From NCBI RefSeq assembly GCF_003151135.1, contig NZ_QEQK01000004.1:62001-126000 (forward strand): a stretch of DNA of 64,000 nt, read 5' to 3'. The notes beneath the pieces were generated by a model. That model was not told where the DNA came from. It ran no database searches and saw only the letters and a program-made list of their open reading frames with translations. Made by a program: the position numbers and the translations under genes. This stretch comes from Abyssibacter profundi. GTDB taxonomy: Bacteria; Pseudomonadota; Gammaproteobacteria; Nevskiales; OUC007. Shown piece by piece: positions 21,059-22,386 of this stretch (position 1 is its first letter; the number at the start of each line of letters is the position of its first letter).

Positions 21059-21295
21059 ATTTGACTGCCGCGACATCGATGTCAGTGTCGTCTGCATGGA
21101 TTTCCCACGTCAGGACGGCGATTTCGAACGATCGTTCAGATAGAATCCGTCGGAAATCGACACTTTGATGCTTGCTTCACCTCATAGGATTCGTTAATGT
21201 ACCCATTAACAGTTGCTTTACAACGGTTCGGGGAAGCCGAAAGTAACTGCCACGAATCCGGGGGGTGAAGTGGAAAAGGCTCTCGAGGGAGAGTG
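21059..21295. other. gene-free region downstream of pnp
   Basis: No convincing reading frame. It is AT-richer than its surroundings and contains small inverted repeats such as GACATCGATGTC near 21072-21083 and CGATCGTTCAG near 21129. It leads into the degenerate copy 1 of the small-RNA repeat. Confidence 0.4.
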
Positions 21296-21336
21296 CCAAG
21301 GTGCGTGAAAGGCGTGATGCCTTTCTCAAGGAGACT
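21296..21336 (-). repeat. copy 1 (degenerate) of the small-RNA core repeat
   Basis: Shares with copies 2 and 3 the core CCAAGGTGCG, the stem GAAAGGC-N5-GCCTTTC (21307-21325) and AGGAGACT. Read on the minus strand it has only a weak terminator (GGC-ACTCTC...GAGAGCC then TTTT), and I find no good promoter upstream, so it looks like a relic. Confidence 0.6.
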
Positions 21337-21340
21337 AGAC

Positions 21341-21367
21341 AAAAGCCCGGCTAGCCCGGGCTTTTGT
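21341..21367. terminator. bidirectional terminator after pnp
   Basis: Ten-bp stem AAAAGCCCGG / CCGGGCTTTT with a short central loop and T-runs in both directions. It probably ends the pnp transcript on the plus strand. Confidence 0.8.
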
Positions 21368-21484
21368 TTGTCTGCGATTCGCGGCGAGCAGTCCTTCGCA
21401 TGCCCCCGCCCCGATTAGACGATTTGGACATCAGGGCCGTGTGCGGCTGGCCTCGAGCGCCCCGTGTTGGGCCTGTGTTCAGGC

Positions 21485-21597
21485 AAAAAAAAGCCCCCGG
21501 GGACGGGGGCCAAGGTGCGAGAAAGGCACGAGGGCCTTTCTGGAGGAGACTCTGTTCAGAAGACCGCGCCTTCGGCGCCACGTCTTCGTCTATGTTG
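21485..21597 (-). ncRNA. candidate small RNA, copy 2
   Basis: Predicted transcript of about 113 nt on the minus strand. The promoter is TTGGGT (21627-21632), 17 bp, TATACT (21604-21609). Elements in order: a 5' hairpin (21587-21559; GAAGAC...GCGCC-GAA-GGCGC...GTCTTC), a single-stranded GTCTCCTCC anti-Shine-Dalgarno motif, a second hairpin (21541-21520; AGAAAGGC / GCCTTTCT), then CGCACCTTGG and a GC-rich terminator with 8 T residues (21485-21492). Copy 3 has the same order and length. The lower stem of hairpin 1 differs in sequence between copies but stays paired, which supports selection on RNA structure. Confidence 0.68.
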
Positions 21598-21605
21598 CGG
21601 TGCAG
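21592..21605. promoter_or_regulatory. PhaR-like site over the copy 2 start point
   Basis: ATGTTGCGGTGCAG overlaps the -10 box and the start of small RNA copy 2. Shared consensus with three other sites is TGTTGCGNTGC. Known PhaR operators are TGC/GCA-rich, so PhaR is the obvious candidate. Confidence 0.45.
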
Positions 21606-21632
21606 TATAACCGAATTAGGTGGCCGACCCAA
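21604..21632 (-). promoter_or_regulatory. promoter of small RNA copy 2
   Basis: Read on the minus strand: TTGGGT at 21632-21627, a 17-bp spacer, TATACT at 21609-21604. Confidence 0.6.
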
Positions 21633-21677
21633 CCCTATCCGGGTCCTTACCTCGAGCCAGCAACCATGACTCCACGC

Positions 21678-21790
21678 AAAAAAAAGCCCCCGGGGGAGGG
21701 GGCCAAGGTGCGAGAAAGGCACAAGGCCTTTCTGGAGGAGACTCGGGTCAAGTTGCAGCGCCTGTGGCGCAGATCAACTGTCTGATGTTG
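21678..21790 (-). ncRNA. candidate small RNA, copy 3
   Basis: Second member of the tandem pair, also about 113 nt. The promoter is a perfect TTGACA, 17 bp, TATACT. The 5' hairpin (21779-21751; AGTTG...GCGCC-ACA-GGCGC...CAACT) has the same GCGCC/GGCGC upper stem as copy 2 but a different, still complementary, lower stem. It is followed by the identical GTCTCCTCCAG motif, the hairpin AGAAAGGC / GCCTTTCT (21733-21713), CGCACCTTGG and a terminator ending in 8 T residues (21678-21685). The exposed CU-rich segment could pair with ribosome-binding sites. The T-rich tail suggests an Hfq-type RNA, which is an inference. Confidence 0.72.
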
Positions 21791-21798
21791 CGATGCAG
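21785..21798. promoter_or_regulatory. PhaR-like site over the copy 3 start point
   Basis: ATGTTGCGATGCAG overlaps the end of the -10 box and the start region of small RNA copy 3, in the same relative position as in copy 2. Confidence 0.45.
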
Positions 21799-21825
21799 TA
21801 TATGGTTAGCTTACTAATGTGTCAA
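21797..21825 (-). promoter_or_regulatory. promoter of small RNA copy 3
   Basis: Read on the minus strand: consensus TTGACA at 21825-21820, a 17-bp spacer, TATACT at 21802-21797. It is one of the strongest-looking promoters in the window. Confidence 0.78.
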
Positions 21826-21830
21826 CAAAA

Positions 21831-21864
21831 ATGTTGCGCTGCACCCAAGGGAATCAATTCCCTT
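21831..21864. promoter_or_regulatory. PhaR-like site and palindrome between phaR and the small RNAs
   Basis: ATGTTGCGCTGCA at 21831-21843 lies 5 bp upstream of the copy 3 -35 box. Next to it is a perfect 8-bp palindrome, AAGGGAAT-CA-ATTCCCTT, at 21847-21864, four bases beyond the phaR stop. The palindrome has no T-run, so it may be a weak terminator or a protein site. Confidence 0.4.
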
Positions 21865-21867
21865 GCT

Positions 21868-22386
21868 CTAGTCTTTCGTGGAGGTGGGTGACGACGCCTC
21901 GCTGTCGTCCTCTTCCAATTTGCCGCCAGCCTTTCCACGTGGAAGATTCTTCACGAATTCACGACGCACGGCACGCCAGAGTTGCGTGTTTTCAGCCGCC
22001 AATTCCTTGAGCGACTGGAGTGGCGTCGCCGTGCCCAAGCGCGTGCGTAACTGATCTTTCAACTGTCCGCTGCGTTCGATGAACAGCTGGAGCGAAAGTT
22101 CCAGGTAGTGGCTGGCCGTGCTCTGCATGCTGTCGCCATAGAAGCGGATCAGCTGCTCCAGCAACTGTGTACGGAAGAGGGGGTTGCCGCCTTCTTCCTG
22201 GTCGGCGATGACTTGCAGCAGGATATTCCGGGTGATGTCCTGGCGGGTGCGTTTGTCGATCACGACGAACTTCACTTCGTCGATCACCAACTGGCGAATT
22301 TCCTCCAGCGTGATGTATCGGCTAATCGCCGTATCGTAGAGCCGGCGGTTGGGGTACTTCTTGATGACACGAACGTCGTCAGTCAT
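21868..22386 (-). CDS. phaR: polyhydroxyalkanoate synthesis repressor PhaR
   Basis: 172-residue regulator. It has the highly conserved N-terminal PhaR DNA-binding domain (VRVIKKYPNRRLYDTAISRYITLEEIRQLV, residues 6-35) and the PHB-accumulation domain (RNILLQVIADQEEGGNPLFRTQLLEQLIRFYG). Known PhaR proteins repress phasin genes and themselves and are released by binding nascent PHB granules. A TGTTGCGCTGC motif 14 bp upstream of its ATG (22400-22411) suggests autoregulation. No PHA synthase or phasin is encoded in the window. Confidence 0.95.
   Translation of the reverse strand: MTDDVRVIKKYPNRRLYDTAISRYITLEEIRQLVIDEVKFVVIDKRTRQDITRNILLQVIADQEEGGNPLFRTQLLEQLIRFYGDSMQSTASHYLELSLQLFIERSGQLKDQLRTRLGTATPLQSLKELAAENTQLWRAVRREFVKNLPRGKAGGKLEEDDSEASSPTSTKD

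Follow-up and report, generated by a model that had tools for sequence, protein, structure and literature searches.

Known PhaR circuits and ribosome-binding-site RNAs

In R. eutropha, PHB granules titrate PhaR (PMC12849132), which protects two positions at the phaP1 promoter, one upstream of the -35 and one around the start site (PMC12849132). The published PhaR/PhbF sites used here for comparison were defined by footprint or EMSA (PMC3206438; PMC12849132) and comprise the footprinted Herbaspirillum motif TG[N]TGC[N]3GCAA (PMC3206438), the Rhodobacter motif CTGC[N]3GCAG (PMC3206438) and the Ralstonia motif YTKNTGCRNYGCANMAR (PMC12849132). In Sinorhizobium meliloti, the small RNA MmgR (alpha-r8) is negatively regulated by AniA, the local PhaR, and is reported to lower phasins and PHB (PMC8401924).

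A separate line of work concerns the Rfam family RF02278 (Betaproteobacteria toxic sRNA, also double-hairpin RNAs), with members ncS03, ncS05, NcS27 and ncS62 of Burkholderia cenocepacia, for which pairing with transport and metabolism mRNAs at the ribosome-binding site is predicted or shown (PMC5688073). Their predicted targets lie in carbon and amino-acid uptake, they are more abundant in glucose medium, and the control of their accumulation was called unknown by the authors (PMC5688073). The similar RNA S17 of Bordetella pertussis likewise represses at ribosome-binding sites (PMC11722255).

The locus considered here lies in a 64,000-nt stretch of Abyssibacter profundi DNA (hereafter the window), where two small RNA (sRNA) units stand directly downstream of phaR on the same strand. 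It shares with the PhaR–phasin circuit (R. eutropha phaP1; H. seropedicae phaP1 and phbF) the core TGCRNYGCA and its promoter positions (PMC12849132; PMC3206438), but that circuit controls proteins, whereas the product here would be an RNA. Like MmgR under AniA, the phaR-side sRNA would be a small RNA tied to PHB with a PhaR-type repressor above it, yet the two come from different bacterial classes and different RNA families. The NmsR sibling sRNAs of Neisseria, likened by description, are also tandem and expose CU-rich stretches against ribosome-binding sites in central metabolism (PMC5688073). We put at roughly 0.7 the probability that both units are PhaR-controlled, trans-acting anti-Shine-Dalgarno sRNAs that lower carbon-uptake translation when granules form.

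Two tandem sRNA units beside phaR

The features of the phaR neighbourhood, all on the minus strand, are as follows.

21868-22386, minus strand: phaR, PHA synthesis repressor, 172 aa (TIGR01848, 144 bits; cut-off 109)
21797-21825, minus strand: unit 1 promoter, TTGACA-17-TATACT, 11/12 to consensus
21678-21790, minus strand: sRNA unit 1, about 113 nt, 5' end placed from the promoter (R1 covariance model, 86.8 bits)
21734-21742, minus strand: unit 1 anti-Shine-Dalgarno segment GTCTCCTCC, read from the sequence and nearly invariant across the sRNA family
21713-21733, minus strand: unit 1 hairpin 2, AGAAAGGC/GCCTTTCT, from fold and covariation
21703-21712, minus strand: unit 1 second unpaired conserved segment CGCACCTTGG, a possible second pairing site, from fold and family alignment
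21678-21704, minus strand: unit 1 terminator stem and T8
21604-21632, minus strand: unit 2 promoter, weak -35 TTGGGT, 17 bp, TATACT, from the sequence
21485-21597, minus strand: sRNA unit 2, about 113 nt, 5' end placed from the promoter (R1 model, 82.5 bits)
21542-21550, minus strand: unit 2 GTCTCCTCC
21520-21541, minus strand: unit 2 hairpin 2
21485-21511, minus strand: unit 2 terminator

The original prediction, an earlier reading of the same sequence, had proposed two minus-strand tandem units, each with a promoter, hairpins, an exposed CU-rich segment and a GC-rich terminator with eight T residues, and all of these elements were found where it had placed them, including a G+C-rich stem followed by T8 at the 3' end of both units. 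Its promoter claim held for unit 1 and for the TATACT of unit 2 at 17 bp, but the -35 of unit 2 matches the consensus at 3/6 positions and was passed over by the promoter scan. The start sites, and hence the equal length of 113 nt, derive from the promoter positions. The repeat between the two units covers 59 nt at 90% identity, and folding prediction gives three hairpins in each, with minimum free energies of -39.2 kcal/mol for unit 1 and -44.2 kcal/mol for unit 2 (z -2.6 and -2.4; 1/200 and 5/200 shuffles as stable, respectively). Hairpin 2 keeps its AGAAAGGC/GCCTTTCT stem around a variable loop, as had been described. The exposure proposed for GTCTCCTCC is mostly borne out, except that the minimum-free-energy structure of unit 1 pairs GUCU with an upstream AGAC, though the centroid leaves GUCU free. 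An own promoter, an intrinsic terminator with a long T-run and an unpaired seed are the features of an Hfq-dependent trans-acting sRNA, and an hfq gene is present in the same genome.

A conserved RNA family with compensatory changes

The sRNA core was found by DNA search in 58 of 61 sampled genomes of the order Nevskiales, and a scan of named genomes placed the family in Nevskia, Solimonas, Sinimarinibacterium, Hydrocarboniphaga, Fontimonas and others of that order. The R1 model recovered 90 copies in 79 loci, with matches also in a few other gammaproteobacterial families when run on the wider class; a search of this kind among relatives, beside phaR, had been suggested with the original prediction, and it returned conserved stems and promoters with phaR usually adjacent. 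Across the 90 copies, 8 of 11 base pairs show changes on both sides, and the cells with double-sided changes (24 observed against 2.4 in shuffles, with 0/500 shuffles as high) stand well above all slid controls, in an alignment that was fitted to the R1 model itself and so favours structure. The covariation seen earlier between the two copies of hairpin 1 extends to orthologues of unit 1, whose lower stem reads AGTTG/CAACT in the window, AGCTG/CAGCT in the congeneric genome G001 and AGCCG/CGGCT in G002. Together with the conserved sigma-70-type promoter, this upholds the proposal of a structured, terminator-ended sRNA with an anti-Shine-Dalgarno segment.

The preference for RNA over protein is likewise sustained, the DNA evolving as a structured RNA does; a protein-coding reading was rejected on the compensatory changes and on the sole long minus-strand ORF (123 aa), which spans a promoter and both terminators. 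The family had gone unrecognised at first reading, and an Rfam search of eight family loci returned no Rfam family at its gathering score; this small-RNA family, not catalogued before, has no Rfam entry. Matches within the window to Thr_leader, ncS54, asX2 and RF02278 were set aside as under gathering and near chance.

The original prediction spoke of a pair and had overlooked a third, diverged copy downstream.

21272-21373, minus strand: third, diverged unit with 5' hairpin ACAAAAGCCCGG../CCGGGCTTTTGT and core AGTCTCCTTGAGAAAGGC (R1 model, 63.5 bits)

The R1 match covers 21272-21336, and the unit is 63% identical to the unit repeat, has its own 5' hairpin and a poor T-run/terminator, and, on inspection of the window locus, shows no PhaR box and no clear promoter. 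It is retained in the congeneric G001 and G002 and is probably degenerate or weakly expressed. Its 5' hairpin AAACAAAAGCCCGG is common to single-copy relatives (L030, L031), and the third unit may keep an ancestral 5' domain that was lost from units 1 and 2. The degenerate look of this unit, which has neither promoter box nor T-run, and the fact that the two congeneric genomes compared yielded no unit 2 could be taken to mean that the units are a non-functional repeat or a duplicated terminator region, but conservation of promoter, seed and structure across the order, with compensatory changes, makes such an origin extremely improbable.

A PhaR-type operator in the sRNA promoters

The regulatory logic of the locus is the piece absent from the original interpretation. 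Three PhaR-type boxes lie in the promoters of units 1 and 2.

21832-21843, minus strand: upstream box TGCAGCGCAACA, just upstream of the unit 1 -35, in the position of PhaR site BS1 of R. eutropha phaP1 (PMC12849132)
21786-21797, minus strand: unit 1 box TGCATCGCAACA, overlapping -10/+1
21593-21604, minus strand: unit 2 box TGCACCGCAACA, overlapping -10/+1

The two boxes of unit 1 correspond in position to the pair of sites protected by PhaR at R. eutropha phaP1. The aligned sRNA promoters read TTGAC-17-TATACTGCACYGCAACA, and the consensus of their -10/+1 region, TATACTGC(A)(N)(Y)GCAACA, contains the PhaR operator core; TATANTGC-NNN-GC lies over -10/+1 in 65 of the 90 copies, with the triplets fixed and R-N-Y between them. 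The published core TGCRNYGCA is found at the promoter positions that PhaR uses, as would be expected of a member of the PhaR regulon. The composite TATANTGCNNNGCAACA has 39 sites in 41 genomes and 0 in the reversed control, and these comprise 35 sRNAs, one phasin, phaR itself once and two unexplained sites. In the window's genome, a phasin-like gene has the same two-site promoter as unit 1, its protein being marginally assigned (Phasin_2, 24.4 bits against a cut-off of 24.9, E 3e-5). These matches argue strongly that the sRNA promoters carry a PhaR operator.

Two composite sites bear on other genes. One lies at the start of phaR (L247:224, genome G026), which is consistent with phaR autoregulation, and another just upstream of a spermidine synthase-like gene (L246:246, genome G021). 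As a genome-wide marker, TGCNNNGCAACA alone was discarded (82 sites against 23 in the reversed control), being informative only in promoter context.

Equally relevant is the co-occurrence with phaR. Counted by genomes rather than by independent evolutionary events, and with G009 and G013 entered as phaR-positive without a direct phaR check, the box is present in 53 of 57 phaR-positive genomes and in 0 of 7 that have the RNA but in which phaR was not found. The phaR-positive genomes lacking the box are G027, G029, G037 and G171, and in G171 the RNA is preceded by a small alanine-rich, phasin-like ORF that adjoins phaR and that no family model recognises.

Other promoter arrangements were also observed. 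In family f117 (L098; L099:1501-1568), a small alanine-rich, phasin-like ORF directly precedes the sRNA core, which lacks its own promoter box and may therefore be a 3'-UTR-derived RNA. In family f6, with phaR-positive and phaR-negative members (L174, L175, L097, L186, L187), a palindrome TACGAAAGTCGTA between -35 and -10 replaces the PhaR box, which suggests that another regulator took over these promoters.

Where phaR lay in the neighbourhood examined, it was on the same strand as the RNA for 56 of 56 copies (48 genomes), with a median gap of 238 nt. This neighbourhood is not incidental, because the sRNA promoters carry PhaR-type operators; conversely, the box is more than a by-product of the neighbourhood, since some copies elsewhere in the genome keep it (e.g., L204, L208, L210). 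An anti-Shine-Dalgarno sRNA outside PhaR control, with TGCACTGCAACA as a conserved RNA 5' end serving stability or pairing and phaR as a mere syntenic neighbour, would accord with a box that continues beyond the probable start of transcription, into the RNA itself, and with the usual adjacency to phaR, which could share its history with the box. It is nonetheless improbable: a phasin gene and phaR carry the composite too, genomes without phaR retain the RNA body but not the box, a second box is situated outside the RNA, ahead of the -35, and the unrelated RF02278 RNAs have the same operator core upstream of their -10.

Activation of these promoters by PhaR, rather than repression, would have a precedent in R. 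eutropha, where it is reported for phaP3 and where PhaR acts both ways (PMC12849132). The placement of the boxes, over -10/+1 and flanking the -35, is however that seen at phaP1, which is repressed, and near-consensus promoters require no activator, which leaves activation with very little weight.

Candidate targets

Ribosome-binding sites of the form GGAGGAGAC are the complement of the exposed GUCUCCUCC. Over 17 genomes, GGAGGAGAC precedes an ATG 107 times, against 45 for the composition-matched GGAGGAGCA, and signal-peptide-like starts are found in 58 of 91 ORFs behind GGAGGAGAC compared with 6 of 22 behind GGAGGAGCA (p 0.003; the signal-peptide rule is crude and the control set small). The ORFs behind GGAGGAGAC include TonB-dependent receptors, DUF1329 and DUF1302 proteins, DcaP porins, AMP-binding acyl-CoA ligases, wax ester synthases and hydrolases, and the enrichment is suggestive of exported and uptake proteins as the sRNA targets.

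An action mainly inside the PHB system, on phasin or phaR translation rather than on carbon uptake, would fit the ribosome-binding site GGAGGA of the phasin-like mRNA, which is complementary to UCCUCC, and the precedent of Sinorhizobium MmgR, which lowers phasins and is repressed by AniA (PMC8401924). GGAGGA is generic, however, whereas the longer GGAGGAGAC points to exported and uptake proteins, and phasin and phaR are absent among the GGAGGAGAC-before-ATG matches of the 17 genomes; such an internal role is unlikely.

Relation to RF02278

RF02278 and the phaR-side family are alike in having a 5' exposed GUCUCCUCC followed by a hairpin and a strong 3' terminator, and in carrying a PhaR-type box upstream when phaR is present. 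They differ in the hairpin, which in RF02278 is CCACC/GGTGG and holds a second CU-rich stretch, where the phaR-side family has AGAAAGGC/GCCTTTCT and CGCACCTTG instead, and in that RF02278 loci are usually not adjacent to phaR. Membership of the window RNAs in RF02278 was rejected on both score and hairpin: the best RF02278 score in the window is 20.1 bits against a gathering score of 50, and cross-scores between the two families (11-19 bits) fall far under gathering. The working principle of the two nevertheless looks alike.

The co-occurrence with phaR is replicated in this other RNA family: among 31 RF02278 loci in a Burkholderiales-like order, TGCRNYGCA lies within 150 nt upstream in 19 of 23 with phaR and in 0 of 8 without (Fisher p 6e-5), against a background in the same loci of 0.03 per 150 nt, the count again being of genomes rather than of independent evolutionary events. 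A looser operator pattern was rejected; its one match in a phaR-negative genome (TGCACAGCA) fails the published R-N-Y core.

In addition, sub-gathering RF02278 matches in about 100 of 369 genomes of the class correspond to a ACTCCTCCATCCTCCTTTGGTGGTTT double-anti-Shine-Dalgarno family. Generic terminators were considered as their source and dismissed when reading the sequences showed a distinct conserved RNA family. These loci (L064-L091, e.g., L073:1501-1561) represent a second conserved anti-Shine-Dalgarno sRNA family, with ACTCCTCCATCCTCCTTTGGTGGTTT and a terminator, and it looks like a wide extension of RF02278 missed by the Rfam cut-off.

Proposed mechanism

Under the preferred reading, PhaR would, in the absence of storage polymer, occupy the TGC-RNY-GCA box over the -10 and start site, and at unit 1 also the second box just upstream of the -35, and would block sRNA transcription. 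As PHB granules form, PhaR would be drawn onto them and the sRNAs would be made alongside phasin; given that PHB granules titrate PhaR, the sRNAs should therefore rise with phasin and then mute uptake and catabolic translation. The exposed GUCUCCUCC would pair with GGAGGAGAC ribosome-binding sites, likely with Hfq, and CGCACCUUG is a probable second pairing site. Translation of outer-membrane uptake and of carbon and lipid catabolism functions would fall, so that a full carbon store would feed back on carbon intake, and the sRNA family probably serves to shut down carbon uptake once storage granules fill. Granule formation in the window's own genome is uncertain because no PHA synthase scores above the curated cut-off, the only candidates being two class III-like PhaC proteins at 161-167 bits against 365.

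Wider meaning

A literature search covering few subscription journals returned no paper linking PhaR to the phaR-side or RF02278 RNAs. We lean, by a modest margin, towards the broader view that PhaR commands anti-Shine-Dalgarno sRNAs, both the new family and RF02278, beyond phasin and across Nevskiales-like gammaproteobacteria and Burkholderiales-like bacteria, as a widespread means for a filled carbon store to hold back carbon intake through translation. The RNA family itself is new to Rfam and offers a concrete handle for PHB-bioplastic strains. If true, the PhaR operator would help explain the rise of RF02278 RNAs in glucose medium and at growth arrest, and in two large bacterial groups the PhaR link would couple carbon storage with post-transcriptional control.
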